NCBI GenBank assembly: GCA_001804805.1
Contig: MHBH01000018.1
Coordinates: forward strand, 1-35,496
DNA: 35,496 bases
Reading direction: 5' to 3'
DNA from: Lentisphaerae bacterium GWF2_49_21
Lineage (GTDB): Bacteria > Verrucomicrobiota > Lentisphaeria > Victivallales > GWF2-50-93
The notes beneath the pieces were generated by a model. The model was not told where the DNA came from. It did no database searches and worked only from the letters and a program-made list of their open reading frames with translations. Below, piece after piece: positions 4,354 through 27,653 of the stretch (position 1 is the stretch's first letter; every line of letters begins with the position of its first letter). Both the position numbers and the translations under genes were made by a program.

Positions 4354-4408
4354 AGAATGTGGTACAGGCGTACTTCGACAAGCTCAGCACAGGTCCCGCC
4401 TGTAATTA
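4354..4408. repeat. REP-like hairpin arm interrupted in its loop by a 23-nt insert
   Basis: Bases 4354-4371 plus 4395-4408 match the left arm of the element at 27562-27647 in 31 of 32 positions. Between them, 4372-4394 is an extra 23-nt stretch beginning acttcgacaagctc. The insert sits in the apical loop of the TACAGGCG/CGCCTGTA stem. A related insert occupies a palindrome loop at 12448-12479. Confidence 0.75.
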
Positions 4409-5302: not shown

Positions 5303-5471
5303 AATACTTGAAATTAGTCCGTCAAGCGGAAATAATCAAGGGAAAAAGTGCCAAAAATTAAGCTGTGAATTCCAACAGAGAACGAGTTTTCCCCATGTAG
5401 GAGCCCAGACAAGTTTCTACCATCCCCCTAGATACTCTCGGCGGAAGTCCTTCCGCACGAGATTATCTGTC

Positions 5472-5666
5472 AAAGATTGCAGCTGGCTAAATCAGGTGGA
5501 GATATGGTTTGGAGTTCTGGCCAGGAAAGTACTTAAAAGAGGGAATTCCACCTCGGCAAAGGATCTCGGCGAGAAGATGGGAATGTTCATCGATTATTTC
5601 AACAGGACCATGTCAAAAGCGTATAAATGGATAAAATACTCTTCCTGCATGGAATTTTGCTGTTAA
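5472..5666 (+). pseudogene. IS630-family transposase, C-terminal fragment
   Basis: Frame 5472-5666 reads about 64 codons to a TAA. It begins KDCSWLNQVEIWFGVL and continues with RGNSTSAKDLGEKM, FIDYFNRTMSKAYKW. This matches the C-terminal end of IS630/Tc1-mariner-type DDE transposases, including the last catalytic glutamate in LNQVEIW. Everything upstream of that motif is missing, including the first two catalytic aspartates and the DNA-binding part; no start codon or ribosome site is seen. Homology begins abruptly a few bases after the palindromic repeat at 5440-5458. It cannot be active and marks an old insertion between the toxin-antitoxin pair and the serpin remnant. Confidence 0.82.
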
Positions 5667-5672
5667 GATGGC

Positions 5673-5701
5673 GTTTCCACAATTCGCAGAATTGTGGAAA
5701 C
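5673..5701. repeat. Perfect 13-bp hairpin
   Basis: GTTTCCACAATTC, a GCA loop and the exact complement form a strong hairpin 7 bases after the stop of the transposase stump. No U-tract follows in either direction, so it may be a remnant of the insertion's end or a repeat rather than a terminator. Confidence 0.65.
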
Positions 5702-5843
5702 TTATAGATTTACTTGTGCGGAAGGACTTCCGCCAAGCAAATCTAGTCAACCAGTAATACTTGCATGAGGAAGAACTCTACATCTTGTCCATCCCATTGT
5801 TAAGTCCTCTGCCTTGACCCTGTTCTGTTTTCTGCGAAGGCGC

Positions 5844-12298: not shown

Positions 12299-12439
12299 AT
12301 AGCCCCCATACAAGTATTATTTTTTACTATTCTTGTTTTCACATATAAAGACGAAGCATCTGATGATTTATTAGAATATAATGGCAAAATAAATAAAAGA
12401 CGAGTGGTTGGCGAGGATTTAAAGCCAATGCCTGGAGCA

Positions 12440-12487
12440 CCTGCATCCTTCGACAAGCTCGGCACAGGTCAGGACAGGTCTTGCAGG
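12440..12487. repeat. Palindrome with a 32-nt insert in its loop
   Basis: CCTGCA (12440-12445) pairs with TGCAGG (12482-12487). Between them lies 12448-12479, beginning cttcgacaagctcggcac and ending in a repeated caggt word. The first 22 bases match the insert at 4372-4394 almost exactly, and again it occupies the hairpin loop. Confidence 0.6.
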
Positions 12488-12499
12488 CAATAAACAATT

Positions 12500-12573
12500 G
12501 CTTGTAGTTAACGCATTCTTGCGTGTGCCTTTGCTTCTTAAAAACCGCAGCCAATAATGGCTTGACTACAAAC
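12500..12573. repeat. REPIN-like element with GTAG-footed hairpins
   Basis: The left arm reads TTGTAGTTAACGCAttctTGCGT and the inverted right arm reads TTGTAGTCAAGCCAttaTTGGCT. The feet match, including the GTAG word, but the hairpin stems differ (ACGCA/TGCGT against AGCCA/TGGCT). It resembles two REP sequences in inverted order. Confidence 0.55.
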
Positions 12574-12659
12574 TATGAAGAAGATGCATAAAAGAAAAAT
12601 ACTTGTTGCGTCTTCAAGAAAAAAGCTGTCATGTTTCAGCTTATAAGACAGGGACATGC

Positions 12660-12692
12660 AAACTTGAGGTGCCAGACTGGCACCTCAAGTTT
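12660..12692. repeat. 16-bp near-perfect palindrome
   Basis: AAACTTGAGGTGCCAG, one central A, and its exact complement. It lies between two divergent genes, upstream of both, so it is unlikely to be a terminator. It may be a solo repeat arm or a regulator site. Confidence 0.6.
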
Positions 12693-12842
12693 GGCATTCT
12701 TCATAGACTTAGCCAAAAAGCTTATGTCTTCCACTCATGATTCTTTTTCCCTTCAGCTTTTGCCATTTCCCCTTTTGGCCGTATCTTAATATTTATGAAC
12801 TGATTGTAAATTAATAGAAAGGTTTGTAGGGAGATAAGCCCC

Positions 12843-12922
12843 GTTGGAGTACAAGCTTCAGCTTGCTCTTCATATAATCCCGAAAAACAAAAAAATACGC
12901 AAACTAAAGTTTGTACTCCAAC
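12843..12922. repeat. REPIN-like nested inverted repeat (80 nt)
   Basis: Arms 12843-12866 and 12899-12922 are inverted copies (12 perfect outer bases, 20 of 24 overall). Each folds alone: CAAGC-ttca-GCTTG on the left, CAAAC-ttta-GTTTG on the right arm's other strand. The G-C pair in one is an A-T pair in the other. It ends 25 bases before the mtaB start. Confidence 0.65.
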
Positions 12923-12947
12923 TTAAGCAATCAGCTCTATACTAAAA

Positions 12948-14225
12948 ATGTCTTCAAGAAATAAAACAGCGGCAGCAGTAACAGTGGGATGCAGGCTCAA
13001 CCAGGCCGACACCGCCCTCATCTTTGGACGCCTCAAGGATGCCGGTTATGAAATTGTCGAGCCTGACACCGACGGCCCGATCGATGTAATCATCATCAAC
13101 TCCTGCGCTGTCACCGCTTCCGCATCCCAGAAGAGTCGCCAGTATGTCCGGGCGTGCAGACGCAATCATCCTGAAGCGAAGATCATCGTCACCGGCTGTG
13201 ACAGTGAAGTTGAAAAGGAATTCTGGAAGAATGAAAAGTCCGTAGACATCTACCTCCCCAATCCCGACAAGACCAGAATCCTCGACTATATAAACGGCCC
13301 TCTCCCCAGGCAGGAAGCCGCCATGGAAAAGATATTCCTGGAGAACACAACGGGCTTCTATCCCTTCCGCAACCGCGCATTCATAAAGATACAGGAAGGC
13401 TGCGACGCCTATTGCACATACTGCATCGTCCCTTATGCCCGAGGTCCGGAAAGATCCCGCGAGCACAAGGAAATAATCTGCGAATTCCGCAAACTCCTCG
13501 AACACGGGCACAAGGAGATCGTCCTTACCGGCGTCAACATCTCGACCTATCGCGACGGCAAACTCGGTCTGGGGGAAATCGTTTCGGAACTTCTCGCCAT
13601 CGAAGGGGATTTCAGGATAAGATTGAGCTCCACAGAACCGCACATTGAAAACAGGAAGCTCATCGGGATCATGAAGAACAATCCAAAACTCTGCAGGTTC
13701 CTCCATCTGCCGCTTCAGCATGGCGCAAATGAGATCCTTAAGCTGATGGGACGCAAATATACAGCGGAGGAATTTGCGGATTTCGCAAACGAGGCGATAT
13801 CGTCAGTCCCGGGAATCCATCTCGGGACAGATGTCATCTGCGGATTCCCCGGCGAGACGGAACAGTTCTTTGAGAAGTCGTGCCGTTTCATCGAGAGCAT
13901 TCCCTTTGCCAATCTCCATGTTTTCAGTTTTTCGCCTAGGAAAGGAACTCCTGCGGCCGATTTCGATGACAAGTTGAAACCGGCGGAAATGAAAGTCCGG
14001 CATCAGAAGCTTGAAGCATTGGAAGACATGCTTGCCAGCAGATTCCTGGATTCACAGATAGGGATTACATTGAAGATCCTGATTGAGAAAGTCAGGAAAA
14101 ACGGTGAATCCGAAGGATGGAGCGACAATTACATCCGAGTCATCTCCCATATGGAAAATGCAAAGCCCGGATCATTTGCCAATGTTCTGATAAAGGAAAA
14201 ATCCGGGAAGATTTTGAAGGGATAG
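12948..14225 (+). CDS. mtaB: tRNA t6A37 methylthiotransferase MtaB
   Basis: A 425-residue radical-SAM enzyme of the MiaB/MtaB family, which adds a methylthio group to t6A at position 37 of ANN-decoding tRNAs. The N-terminal UPF0004 domain has the three cluster cysteines C15 (TVGCRLNQ), C53 (NSCAVT) and C84 (VTGC). The radical-SAM cluster motif is C152-x3-C156-x2-C159 in EGCDAYCTYCIVPYARG, whose sequence favours MtaB over MiaB or RimO. A short TRAM-like C-terminal part begins at about 370. Length is normal. No good ribosome site precedes the ATG (ATACTAAAA), but the cysteine spacing fits this start. It stands alone, converging with the TPR gene 43 bases downstream. Confidence 0.92.
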   Translation: MSSRNKTAAAVTVGCRLNQADTALIFGRLKDAGYEIVEPDTDGPIDVIIINSCAVTASASQKSRQYVRACRRNHPEAKIIVTGCDSEVEKEFWKNEKSVDIYLPNPDKTRILDYINGPLPRQEAAMEKIFLENTTGFYPFRNRAFIKIQEGCDAYCTYCIVPYARGPERSREHKEIICEFRKLLEHGHKEIVLTGVNISTYRDGKLGLGEIVSELLAIEGDFRIRLSSTEPHIENRKLIGIMKNNPKLCRFLHLPLQHGANEILKLMGRKYTAEEFADFANEAISSVPGIHLGTDVICGFPGETEQFFEKSCRFIESIPFANLHVFSFSPRKGTPAADFDDKLKPAEMKVRHQKLEALEDMLASRFLDSQIGITLKILIEKVRKNGESEGWSDNYIRVISHMENAKPGSFANVLIKEKSGKILKG

Positions 14226-19767: not shown

Positions 19768-19847
19768 AATGTAACACAGGCATCTTGCCTGTGTCTTTAC
19801 TTTTTGTTCTTTATTCTCAATCACAGGCAAGATGACTGTGCTACATT
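19768..19847. repeat. REPIN-like nested inverted repeat (80 nt)
   Basis: The arms at 19768-19793 and 19822-19847 match inverted in 24 of 26 bases. The left arm folds as CACAGGCA-tct-TGCCTGTG, and a GTAG/GTAA word stands at the foot of each arm. It lies just after pyrD and just before the stop of the convergent kinase gene. Confidence 0.7.
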
Positions 19848-23278: not shown

Positions 23279-23359
23279 GTAGGTACGGCCTTTAGGCTGT
23301 ACCATTCTTAACTCTTAAAAAATTACAAAATGCTGGTACAGGCTAAAGCCCGTACCTAC
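23279..23359. repeat. REPIN-like nested inverted repeat (81 nt)
   Basis: Arms 23279-23304 and 23334-23359 match inverted in 24 of 26 bases and start with GTAG. Left stem GCCT/AGGC becomes GGCT/AGCC in the other arm, so both changes keep the pair. It sits directly behind the UroD-like stop codon. Confidence 0.75.
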
Positions 23360-23409
23360 CTCATCCCCGTCCATCTCGGTTGTTGCTTTTACCCCCTTTT
23401 CCCGAAGTC

Positions 23410-23427
23410 TATGCCACATGTGGCATA
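23410..23427. promoter_or_regulatory. Perfect 18-bp palindrome TATGCCACATGTGGCATA
   Basis: An exact palindrome. Its right half plus one base, ACATGTGGCATAA, recurs as a 13-base direct repeat at 23640-23652, just upstream of the small zinc-ribbon gene and overlapping CATAAT, a possible -10. This looks like a full and a half operator, or element boundaries. Confidence 0.45.
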
Positions 23428-23675
23428 ACTGTATAATGACCTTGCCTTGGGTTAAAATAATTGAATCTTGAATTTGCCACAAGGCCGTTGTAAATTACTT
23501 AATAATGAGGAAGATAACAATAAATGGATTTGATAAAAACAATCTATTCCGGGGTTTCCAAGATTCATTCATACGTATCACTTAAGCAACGAAATATCGT
23601 CAAAACCGCTGTTTCAGCGTAATTGAATATAGTTTTCCAACATGTGGCATAATAATATTAAGTATAGGAGATAAA

Positions 23676-23861
23676 ATGGCAAAGAAAATTGATGTTGTAG
23701 AAGCTCCAGACAATGTTTATCCTATTTGTCCTCACTGCAAGAAGGAGTTGAAATTTATTTGGGTGAAAACAAAAGGATTTGGATTTATTGAGAGAAAGCA
23801 ATTTTTACTTTGTCCCCACTGTAAAACTTTCTTGGCATTTGGAAACATCTCCTTGGCTTGA
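23676..23861 (+). CDS. Small zinc-ribbon protein
   Basis: A 61-residue protein with two CPHC knuckles, C18-x2-C21 (ICPHCKKEL) and C46-x2-C49 (LCPHCKTFL), forming a likely four-cysteine zinc ribbon with a lysine-rich middle. No enzyme motif is seen; such proteins often bind nucleic acid or another protein. AGGAG stands 5 bases before the ATG. Codons are clearly richer in A/T than in the neighbours, and the gene sits alone between repeats, which suggests acquisition or a rapidly changing orphan. The 13-base half-palindrome lies about 25 bases upstream and may regulate it. Function not recognised. Confidence 0.72.
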   Translation: MAKKIDVVEAPDNVYPICPHCKKELKFIWVKTKGFGFIERKQFLLCPHCKTFLAFGNISLA

Positions 23862-24211
23862 TTAAAATTAATAAAGGAGATCAAATAAAACTTAACCATA
23901 CGGCCTCACCGAACCGGAGTACCGTTCAATAGGCCTTAGCGTTAAGAATCGAAGAAATGATTGATTGTTCCTGATTCAATTGGTATTATGATGAGCGAGA
24001 GCGAATCTTTGGACTGCGGCAGCCCCCTGCCGCTTTGGATTCTGAATTCAGATAGAATTGGAAATAAATGCAAAGCGGCACAGGAGTGCCGCAGTCCAAA
24101 GTCACGCCAAAGCGCCTGACATAAAGAAAAGATATGTTTTTTAACAATTTCCATTCATCCAATCCCGCATCCACGGTGTGGATGACAGGTGAACGCTACT
24201 GAAAGGATAAA
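23862..24211. other. Gap with a REPIN-like repeat
   Basis: No gene seen. Holds the repeat at 24007-24101; the rest has no recognisable feature except the GAAAGGAT ribosome site of the next gene. Confidence 0.65.
24007..24101. repeat. REPIN-like nested inverted repeat (95 nt)
   Basis: Arms 24007-24037 and 24071-24101 match inverted in 27 of 31 bases. The left arm folds as GCGGCAG-cccc-CTGCCGC and the other as GCGGCAC-tcct-GTGCCGC, so the closing G-C pair is swapped to C-G on both sides at once. Confidence 0.75.
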
Positions 24212-24676
24212 ATGTCGGAATTTGGGAAAGCACTCTTCGGCGGGAGCCGTTTCGTATTCTGGAGCCTGTCTCCAATGATCCTGCTCTTCCTGGTCACCCT
24301 GCCGTTCCTCATCCCCAAGTGGAATGTCGGGATTGTAATAATCATGGTGGCCTTATCTATCATCGGGATCTTTTTGATACTGGGCATGTTCAATCCTTCA
24401 CGCTTTGGCTGGGCTTTCAGAGTTGTCAGCGCAACAGTCTTCCTTGCCTATGTCGCATACGCCTTGTCCGAACTGGCTGAAAATGACTGGATGCTCAAAA
24501 AACCGAAGTCCCGGGGCGAGGCAAATCCCGTCAACGCACTTATCGGACTGGTGATCATTGGCGGTCCGGCCTTGATGTATACCATCCTCGGACGGTTCAG
24601 ATTCCAGAAAGAAGAGGATGAACCATTTGATGACGACGAACTAGATGAGGACGGCCAGCCACCATCTGAAAACTAG
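24212..24676 (+). CDS. Small integral membrane protein of unknown function
   Basis: A 154-residue protein with about four membrane helices (near 16-34, 38-58, 67-86 and 105-124) and a very acidic cytoplasmic-looking tail (EEDEPFDDDELDEDGQPPSEN). No family motif is recognised. GAAAGGAT lies about 6 bases before the ATG. The DUF4038 glycosidase gene starts 48 bases after its stop, so both may share a transcript, though no functional link is visible. Confidence 0.75.
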   Translation: MSEFGKALFGGSRFVFWSLSPMILLFLVTLPFLIPKWNVGIVIIMVALSIIGIFLILGMFNPSRFGWAFRVVSATVFLAYVAYALSELAENDWMLKKPKSRGEANPVNALIGLVIIGGPALMYTILGRFRFQKEEDEPFDDDELDEDGQPPSEN

Positions 24677-24724
24677 CATCAGTTTGATCAATGTGTTATA
24701 AAAATCCTAAAAAATGGAGTTGCC

Positions 24725-26347
24725 ATGAAAGATAAAAGAGAGCGCCAAAACATCCCGGGCATCCAGCGTGAACCGCTTGAATGGAACTATAGATCCTCTA
24801 AAAAATACTCCGATCCGTTCAACGATGTCGACTTGGATGTAATTGTCAGCGCACCGGACGGCGACAAATACCGGATTCCATGTTTCTGGGCTGGAAAGAA
24901 TGAATGGCGTGCGAGATTCGCAGCTCCGAAACCCGGATCTTATCAGCTCGAATCAGTCTGCTCCGACAAGATCAACCACAGCCTCCACGGAAAAAAAGCA
25001 ATTCTCAAGATTTCTCCTTACAAAGGGAAAAATCTTCTTTTGAAACACGGGAATCTCCGTGTAGCGGATTCAAAAAGGACTTTCGAACATGAGGACGGCA
25101 CTCCGTTCTTCTGGCTCGGTGACACCTGGTGGCTCGCACTCAGCAAACGGATGTCATGGCCGACAGATTTCAAACAACTCACAGCAGACCGAGTAAGAAA
25201 GGGCTTCTCCGTAATCCAGATCGTCGCGGGAATTTATCCTGACATGGACTCCTTCGACAAGCGCGGCGAGAACGAAGCCGGCTTTCCATGGGAAAAGAAT
25301 TATTCCAGGATAAATCCGGCGTATTTTGACAAGGCCGACCAGAGGATTGGCTGGCTTGTCCAGCAGGGGCTTGTCCCGTGCATCGTCGGATGCTGGGGAT
25401 ATTATCTTGCCAAGCTAGGGACCGAAAAGCTCAAGAAGCACTGGCGATATCTGATTGCGAGATGGTCGGCATATCCCGTGGTCTGGTGCGCCGCTGGTGA
25501 AGCGGAAATGCCTTACTATCTTTCAAAAGACAAGGATGCCGACAGGAAGACGCAGCATGAGGGATGGACGGAGCTTGTAAAATACATCAGGAACACGGAT
25601 CCAGTAAAACACATGGTCACCATCCACCCCACCCGCATCGGAAGAAATCAGATAGCCGATGACAGCCTTCTTGACTTTGACATGCTCCAAACAGGCCATT
25701 CCGGATATGAAACCGTTCCATACACGGTCAAGACTGTCATTGAGGAAAGGAAGAGGCAGCCGCATATGCCGGTGCTTGTCGGCGAGGTCAACTACGAGGG
25801 GATATTCCACCACTCGCATGAAGATGTGCAGCGTCTGACATTCTGGTCAGCGCTCCTTTCCGGTACAGCCGGCCACACGTACGGGGCGAACGGAATATGG
25901 CAGGTGAATACCGAAAAGGATCCATATGGACCTTCACCACACGGTGGTAACTGGGGAATCACCCCGTGGCAGGAGGCCAGCAGACTGCCCGGCTCTTTCC
26001 AGCTTGGCCTGGCGAGAAAATTCCTTTCGCGATATGAATGGTGGAAATTCGAACCACGCCAGGACTGGGTGACGCCCCCTGGCACTCCTGAAAAACAGGA
26101 TCTGCCATTTGCAGCTGGAATCCCAGGAGTCGTCAGAATCATTTACATATATAATCCACCTACCCCATGGGCCGAGCCCATGATGGTCTCGTCACTGTCA
26201 ACACGCATCCAATACAATGCATTCTTCTGGGATCCCCGGACTGGAAAGAAATATGAAATCGAAAAAATAAAACCCGACTCTGCAGGCAGCTGGAAGATTC
26301 CCATCGTTCCATACTTCAAGGACTGGGTAGTGGTGATTGAAGAATGA
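24725..26347 (+). CDS. DUF5060/DUF4038 glycoside hydrolase (GH140 apiosidase-like)
   Basis: A 540-residue enzyme. The N-terminal DUF5060 beta domain (about 14-100, REPLEWNYRSSKKYSDPFNDVDLDV) is followed by the DUF4038 TIM barrel (about 118-460) and a C-terminal beta domain of the collagen-binding-like type. DUF4038 includes GH140 apiosidases. Candidate catalytic acids are E259 in VWCAAGEAEM and E354 or E358 in LVGEVNYEG, with FFWLGDTWWLAL near the barrel start. No signal peptide is seen, so action on imported oligosaccharides is more likely than on outside polymers. The exact sugar cannot be told. Ribosome-site match is poor (GGAGTTGCC before the ATG). It follows the membrane protein and precedes the divergent regulator/methyltransferase pair. 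Confidence 0.87.
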   Translation: MKDKRERQNIPGIQREPLEWNYRSSKKYSDPFNDVDLDVIVSAPDGDKYRIPCFWAGKNEWRARFAAPKPGSYQLESVCSDKINHSLHGKKAILKISPYKGKNLLLKHGNLRVADSKRTFEHEDGTPFFWLGDTWWLALSKRMSWPTDFKQLTADRVRKGFSVIQIVAGIYPDMDSFDKRGENEAGFPWEKNYSRINPAYFDKADQRIGWLVQQGLVPCIVGCWGYYLAKLGTEKLKKHWRYLIARWSAYPVVWCAAGEAEMPYYLSKDKDADRKTQHEGWTELVKYIRNTDPVKHMVTIHPTRIGRNQIADDSLLDFDMLQTGHSGYETVPYTVKTVIEERKRQPHMPVLVGEVNYEGIFHHSHEDVQRLTFWSALLSGTAGHTYGANGIWQVNTEKDPYGPSPHGGNWGITPWQEASRLPGSFQLGLARKFLSRYEWWKFEPRQDWVTPPGTPEKQDLPFAAGIPGVVRIIYIYNPPTPWAEPMMVSSLSTRIQYNAFFWDPRTGKKYEIEKIKPDSAGSWKIPIVPYFKDWVVVIEE

Positions 26348-26509
26348 GACATGAACATCCACCGTACCCCGTCGCTGAGAAGCTATGGCGGACAGGTCGA
26401 ACTTCCAACTTCGAATGAAGAAAGTGGCACACTGCATTTACATCATGACAAGTTCCAATTTTCAAACAAATACAGGAACAGCCCTTACGTGTCTTAACTG
26501 CTGACAATC

Positions 26510-26590
26510 AAGAACACGTCTTGCGACGTTGACTACAAACATATTCAATAGTTGCATTCGTTCGTAGTTAAGCTCGCAAGAGCTGTTCTT
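26510..26590. repeat. REPIN-like nested inverted repeat (81 nt)
   Basis: Two 31-base arms (26510-26540, 26560-26590) match inverted in 25 positions. The left folds as ACGTC-ttgc-GACGT, the right as AGCTC-ttgc-GAGCT on its other strand; four of the six mismatches are two compensated base pairs. GTAG words stand at the inner feet. Confidence 0.75.
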
Positions 26591-27530: not shown

Positions 27531-27561
27531 AAATTATTCTCCAGTCTGAAAATATTGTCTT

Positions 27562-27647
27562 AGAGAATGTGATACAGGCGTCCCGCCTGTAATTATGAAT
27601 TAATAAAGCAAAGACAAATTACAGGCGAGATGCCTGTACCACACTCT
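27562..27647. repeat. REPIN-like nested inverted repeat (86 nt)
   Basis: Arms AGAGAATGTGATACAGGC... and its inverted partner agree in nearly all positions, with GTGG/GTGA at the feet and a TACAGGC/GCCTGTA hairpin in each arm. It lies between the AraC gene and the promoter of the UroD-like gene. Its left arm is the same sequence as the interrupted arm at 4354-4408. Confidence 0.75.
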
Positions 27648-27653
27648 TTATTA

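Follow-up and report, generated by a model that had tools for sequence, protein, structure and literature searches.

The locus analyzed here raises the question of why the two arms of a short inverted repeat differ from one another by base changes that preserve the small hairpin within each arm while breaking the pairing between the arms. The window, that is, the whole stretch of DNA analyzed, is the complete 35,496-nucleotide contig MHBH01000018.1 (C18) of the 5.9-Mb draft genome of Lentisphaerae bacterium GWF2_49_21, and it contains seven REPINs, which are inverted pairs of repetitive extragenic palindromic (REP) hairpins. REP sequences are among the commonest bacterial repeats. In our reading these elements are very probably heterotypic REPINs, non-autonomous mobile DNA that depends on REP-associated tyrosine transposases (RAYTs), in which the hairpin of each arm is kept and the mismatch between arms blocks arm-arm pairing.

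The seven elements are 66–95 bp long, all are intergenic, and they represent seven families (F1 to F6 and F11, of which F5 and F6 overlap in part). Each REP consists of a short tag (GTAG, GGAG, GGAC, GTGG or GTAA) and an adjoining hairpin of 5–9 bp, and so has the GTAG/GGAG-like tetranucleotide 5′ of a small hairpin by which REPs and REPINs are recognized; the tag is GTAG in F1, F3 and F11, GGAG in F2, GGAC or GGAG in F4, GTGG or GTAG in F5, and GTAA or GTAG in F6. The elements are gene-free and none has its own Y1 transposase between a left end (LE) and a right end (RE), as an IS200/IS605 element would. In five of the seven the differences between arms are compensated. The stems read GGCC/GGCT in one arm and GGGC/GCCT in the other at 23279–23359, GCGGCAG/CTGCCGC and GCGGCAC/GTGCCGC at 24007–24101, ACGTC/GACGT and AGCTC/GAGCT at 26510–26590, and CAAGC/GCTTG and CAAAC/GTTTG at 12843–12922, while a fifth element at 12504–12569 has two adjacent pairs flipped (ACGC..GCGT, with the ACGC counterpart AGCC..GGCT). 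The remaining two show uncompensated, one-sided changes, namely a single stem pair at 19768–19847 (G-C to T/C) and the loop-closing pair at 27561–27650 (G-C to A/C). The first-pass annotation of this DNA had reported the first four paired changes, and each proved exact when the sequence was reread; all four are compensated, but they form a favorable selection from seven elements that include the uncompensated pair at 19768 and 27561.

Table 1. REPs of the seven window REPINs and two single REP-like hairpins, with coordinates in the window.
Feature	Coordinates	Strand	Remark	Basis
REP F1, left arm (GTAG + GGTACGGCC TTTA GGCTGTACC)	23279..23303	+		sequence
REP F1, right arm (GGTACGGGC TTTA GCCTGTACC)	23335..23359	-	C-G to G-C relative to left arm	
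REP F4, left arm (TTTGGAC T GCGGCAG CCCC CTGCCGC)	24008..24033	+		
REP F4, right arm (GCGGCAC TCCT GTGCCGC)	24075..24100	-	G-C flipped to C-G	
REP F3 type L (GTAGTCA ACGTC GCAA GACGT GTTCTT)	26510..26536	-	GTAG towards center, tail-to-tail pair	
REP F3 type R (GTAGTTA AGCTC GCAA GAGCT GTTCTT)	26564..26590	+	2 bp flipped relative to type L	
REP F2 type G arm (GGAG TA CAAGC TTCA GCTTG)	12846..12865	+		
REP F2 type A arm (GGAG TA CAAAC TTTA GTTTG)	12900..12919	-	G-C to A-T	
REP F11 type L (GTAGTTA ACGCA TTCT TGCGT GT)	12504..12526	+	absent from the first-pass list	
REP F11 type R (GTAGTCA AGCCA TTAT TGGCT GC)	12547..12569	-	2 bp flipped	
REP F6 (TGTAA CACAGGCA TCT TGCCTGTG)	19770..19793	+		
REP F6 (TGTAG CACAGTCA TCT TGCCTGTG)	19822..19845	-	one broken stem pair, uncompensated	
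REP F5 (TGTGA TACAGGCG TCC CGCCTGTA)	27568..27591	+		
REP F5 (TGTGG TACAGGCA TCT CGCCTGTA)	27620..27643	-	loop-closing pair lost, uncompensated	
Single F5-type REP	4358..4404	+	~21-nt motif (CTTCGACAAGCTCAGCACAGG) within loop	
Single REP-like hairpin (GGAGCACCTGCAT...CTTGCAGGC)	12434..12488	+	loop holds same ~21-nt motif as 4358..4404	

Whether the paired changes exceed chance was assessed with statistics from 1.93 Mb of the genome, supplemented by whole-genome pattern searches. Among distinct REPs of 13 families we count 276 two-sided paired stem changes compared to approximately 95 in column shuffles, together with 109 one-sided broken, 80 one-sided wobble and 25 two-sided unpaired changes. 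In alignments of F3 and F1, from which a few rows belonging to other families or with a lost stem were excluded (these rows are included in the count of 276), the number of paired-change cells is 48 for F3 (shuffled 19.0 ± 3.5) and 39 for F1 (shuffled 12.6 ± 2.2). None of 500 shuffles reaches the observed value in either family, and sliding the partner position leaves only 0–2 and 0–9 such cells, respectively. The paired fraction of cells is 99.0% for F3 and 98.0% for F1, and the covariation scores of 0.592 and 0.397 exceed those of shuffled columns (0.190 and 0.133) and of slid partners (at most 0.101 and 0.071). The number of stem mismatches relative to the family pattern is likewise biased, being even and above zero in 160 REPs and odd in 54 across eight families, with 35, 0, 14, 1, 19 and 3 REPs of F3 at zero to five mismatches; this excess is conservative because detection by mismatch count disfavors double changes. 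A lack of surplus paired changes in the stems, named at the outset as what would speak against a conserved hairpin, is contradicted by this strong covariation against both shuffled and slid controls, and the view that the arm hairpin is the conserved unit is supported. The companion claim that arm-to-arm pairing is broken also holds, since the longest perfect arm-arm run has a median of 6–12 nt in 11 of 13 families and the arms are not complementary across the whole REP as they would be in a symmetrical REPIN. These cells should not be read as events, because the copies are related.

In most families the arms belong to two fixed types, a difference that is copied along with the element. The compensatory changes are real and above chance, but they do not represent a separate compensation in each element as first supposed, since almost all copies of a family carry one and the same arm difference. 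Genome-wide, 45 of 46 F11 elements combine one ACGC arm with one AGCC arm, the 46th carries a one-sided change and none has identical arms; all 17 F11 elements in congener G001 and all 11 in G003 are heterotypic as well. For F2 the count is 26 of 28, the other two being G-G, with 2 of 2 in G001. For F3 it is 23 of 24 in this genome, and inspection by eye of 19, 12 and 2 elements in congeners G001, G002 and G003 finds in every case an L arm (AYGYC) with an R arm (AGCYC). Random re-pairing of arms predicts 9.8 ± 2.1 heterotypic elements for F2 and 13.3 ± 2.4 for F11, compared to the 18 of 18 and 25 of 25 observed. Stem pairs that differ between arms are compensated in 93 of 109 cases in F1, 19 of 20 in F2, 31 of 32 in F3, 48 of 51 in F11, 24 of 35 in F8, 8 of 8 in F10, 6 of 7 in F4 and 6 of 6 in F17, with weaker compensation in F5 (14/24), F6 (11/23), F7 (7/14) and F15 (3/8). 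Heterotypy is not universal, and identical arms occur in part of F4 and F10.

Several lines of evidence connect these families to transposases. The window families number 19–127 REPs each in the 1.93 Mb compared to 0–9 in shuffles, 53 REPINs match the F1 pattern in the whole genome, and head-to-head REP pairs prevail in every family except F3, in which pairs are tail-to-tail. Twenty genes with a Y1 transposase domain (Y1_Tnp) are found in the 5.9-Mb genome, and a scan of gene flanks matches 11 RAYT genes one-to-one with 11 REP families. Six of the seven window families have their own RAYT elsewhere in the same genome: F1 (L015, contig position C9:37025), F2 (L020, C32:183623), F4 (L014, C63:78206), F5 (L009, C67:22855), F6 (L011, C43:33780) and F11 (L017, C7:25155). 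The other five matches are L016 with F7, L018 with F10, L019 with F9, L013 with F17 and L005 with F15. The best match of the six window-family RAYTs is the NCBIfam model for REP-associated tyrosine transposases at 65.6–85.4 bits, and three of the six pass its cut-off of 80. A comparison of the F1 RAYT with public genome contigs returned distant relatives only. Two further, short IS200-like genes (L001 and L002, 148–150 amino acids) adjoin hairpin repeats of other kinds, F13 and F12. For F3, the only RAYT with REPs of this type at its flanks came from a congener (L171, G001:C56:43820). The flanks and this congener locus, where GTAG lies inside a tail-to-tail pair, rule out an alternative description of F3 as a GAAC-tagged head-to-head element. 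The spread of F3 as a tail-to-tail pair with GTAG inside is unlike all other families of this genome. The F5 RAYT gene has incorporated REPs into its coding sequence, and terminal peptides such as RTGVSPVI and TGRRPV are translated REPs.

The consequences of the arm difference for folding were computed for 186 elements using DNA parameters, comparing a strand with one long arm-arm hairpin to a strand with two arm hairpins. The long hairpin is the more stable state in 98 of 186 elements with their real arms and in 185 of 186 if the arms are made identical. For F11 it wins in only 1 of 25 elements, with −5.3 kcal/mol for the long hairpin compared to −8.9 kcal/mol for two arm hairpins, and would reach −24.5 kcal/mol with identical arms. 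For most families, mismatched arms move the balance between the two folds by approximately 10–20 kcal/mol. At least one energy value for F8 is invalid, as the spacer is too short for a loop; the F8 and overall long-hairpin means are therefore ignored, and the element counts hold. A trend with arm spacing is also seen. Of the 160 elements whose spacers do not exceed 40 nt, 12 have a perfect arm-arm run of at least 16 nt, compared to 8 of the 25 with longer spacers, and the trend persists over distinct elements (rho 0.35). F10 is mixed, with spacers of 73, 74 and 104 in identical-arm elements and 26, 26, 96 and 107 in heterotypic ones.

The analysis shows the REP architecture, the linkage to RAYTs, the covariation, the fixed types of arm and the computed energies; that the RAYT binds these elements and that they are mobile is our inference. 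Each REP would be recognized by the RAYT as a folded single strand, and the enzyme probably requires that each arm form a small hairpin without mismatches. A stem mutation would then be tolerated only together with a change in its partner, because the RAYT reads the folded REP, and stem changes would come in pairs. In most families the arms are fixed as two types, with one to three base pairs swapped between their stems. A strand with identical arms would fold into one long hairpin that the transposase could not use and that palindrome-cutting nucleases could attack, and swapped base pairs would make the pair of small hairpins competitive. Group 3 TnpAREP is known to require GTAG, particular loop bases and a mismatch-free stem, whose sequence matters much less (PMC8266576). 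Prevention of arm-arm pairing is the likeliest single reason for heterotypy, but we advance it tentatively, with an end code and plain descent as serious rivals. It is similarly a possibility, to be treated with some doubt, that heterotypy is selected negative design, in which swaps that spare each hairpin and remove the long one arise time and again among families and then become locked in. If true, such negative design would explain the preference for REP heterodimers, with the fold of the strand switched to two transposase-ready hairpins.

A number of observations weigh against this interpretation. The draft genome yielded no RAYT for F3. F9 is homotypic (0 of 6 elements heterotypic), and in F5 and F6, both with short spacers, the arms are more alike than random re-pairing predicts. 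The energies apply to isolated, protein-free strands. The spacing trend is borderline at the family level (rho 0.53, p 0.06) and is due mainly to F1 and to differences between families, F1 being the only family with significance within it. Copies are non-independent, and descent with the element accounts for part of the heterotypy without selection. The sole hint of movement comes from congener G002, in which 58 bp separate the homologue of 12337–12392 from the gene at 12948, where the window has approximately 550 bp (12393–12944) that include two REPINs as well as a nested REP; a deletion in G002 could also produce this difference, and in G001 and G003 the genes upstream of the 12948 gene are arranged differently.

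The strongest rival, which we nonetheless consider somewhat unlikely, is an end code, in which the RAYT would tell the left end from the right end by the type of arm and the lost arm-arm pairing would be a by-product. IS200/IS605 elements have an LE and an RE that differ. F3 and F11 use a common code at stem positions 2–3 (YG versus GC) even though the F11 RAYT and the nearest RAYT for F3, that of congener G001:C56, are only 50% identical; the same F11 arm pair is kept in two congeners, and in F2 the inner flanks differ between arm types. The shared YG/GC code fits an end code, but it may also reflect common ancestry of the REPs. Some families have identical arms, and swaps of much of the stem sequence barely affect cleavage in E. 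coli and Marinomonas (PMC8266576).

Pure descent, in which each family goes back to a single heterotypic founder that multiplied as a unit, with no current selection on heterotypy, is unlikely in our estimation, although it accounts naturally for the same arm difference in nearly every copy, and the doublet is considered the multiplying unit of REPINs (PMC3116915). Per-site identity is 0.9–1.0 for the tags and most stem positions and mostly approximately 0.2–0.6 for the linkers adjoining the arms in F11, F2 and F3. The arm types therefore outlast near-random linkers, which argues for constraint and not only recent copying. In addition, many families gained heterotypy separately; a stricter count, by family, position in the stem and type of pair, gives 46 distinct differences between arms. 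The make-up of these 46 types bears on a mutational origin, by template switching across the small palindrome (quasi-palindrome correction) instead of selection on folding. Flips (C-G/G-C or A-T/T-A), which need no wobble intermediate, are common, with 132 of 268 cells and 16 of the 46 types, but 22 types are transitions and 8 are other transversions. Template switching corrects imperfect stems in either direction, and it leaves the transitions, the conserved tetranucleotide and loop, and the fixed combination of two arm types unexplained; we regard it as quite improbable. A role as RNA, with the fold selected in terminators or mRNA-stabilizing hairpins, would suit seven intergenic elements, one of which starts right after a stop codon (gene end 23274, element start 23279), but is very improbable given that the window has no Rfam match at gathering score, that few parts are conserved as well as the tetranucleotide, which lies outside the stem, and that the families are each tied to their own RAYT gene.

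Apart from the REPINs, the loop motif of the two single hairpins in Table 1 belongs to a set of 31 genome copies of a motif of approximately 21 nt (CTTCGACAAGCTCRGNRCARG). By eye, approximately 24 of the 30 copies seen in context lie inside loops of REP or REP-like hairpins of several families, including window positions 4358–4404 and 12434–12488 and loci L231–L260; under a strict rule of contiguous stems, a flanking stem of at least 7 bp is present in 10 of 30 compared to 1.1% of random places. The pattern resembles that of a nested mini-element that inserts into the loops of REP hairpins from unrelated families without disturbing the stem. A literature search found no paper containing the motif sequence. 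The motif is also present in ten viral contigs, mostly outside evident hairpins. At 5428–5746 open-frame fragments and a perfect hairpin (GTTTCCACAATTCGCAGAATTGTGGAAAC) lie between the arms of a 41-nt inverted repeat (GGCGGAAGTCCTTCCGC core), which are separated by 237 nt; the structure looks like a remnant of another mobile element, and further copies of its arms are found in L141 and L125. At 23410–23651 the palindromic TATGCCACATGTGGCATA and a second palindrome, ACATGTGGCATA, stand upstream of a small open frame at 23676, which encodes a protein with two CPHC motifs, and could be a candidate operator.

The IS200/IS605 elements IS608 and ISDra2 have related HUH tyrosine transposases that act on single-strand hairpins; the window elements differ in being gene-free and in having REP tetranucleotides. 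A likeness in architecture exists to the Marinomonas REP Mb, whose loop is the TTNA found in F1, F2 and F9 and whose layout is that of F2, with a 5-bp stem two bases from the tag and a TTYA loop (PMC8266576). As in the REPINs of Pseudomonas fluorescens SBW25, the unit is an inverted REP doublet, families stand beside their own RAYT, copy number is high and location is intergenic; the SBW25 elements, however, are described as symmetrical and forming one long hairpin (PMC3116915), whereas here there are mostly two different arms with broken mutual pairing. REPs are known to form homo- and heterodimers, some families being exclusively hetero, a preference that had no obvious explanation and for which escape from SbcCD was suggested (Di Nocera 2013, PMC3733652). 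With 11 RAYT-REP systems in one genome, most of them heterotypic and a few not, and with congeners available, this question, open since 2013 (PMC3733652), becomes testable, and the present results offer a quantitative candidate reason in the shift of folding balance by arm mismatch, which seems least strict with distant arms. The E. coli GTAG-3 (y with z1/z2) and P. aeruginosa GTAG-24 heterodimers similarly differ in stems or loops (PMC3733652; PMC8266576), but the present case involves approximately ten RAYT-linked families in one genome, with mostly compensated swaps that are kept in congeners. The REPs of Stenotrophomonas bacterial interspersed mosaic elements vary at a few positions with the palindrome preserved, and selection for complementary mutations was proposed (Nunvar 2010, PMC2817692). 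Here such changes are counted against shuffles and slid partners and are fixed by arm. Complementary REP mutations (2010) and REP heterodimers (2013) are thus already published, and the elements described here are a well-documented further case of a known kind.

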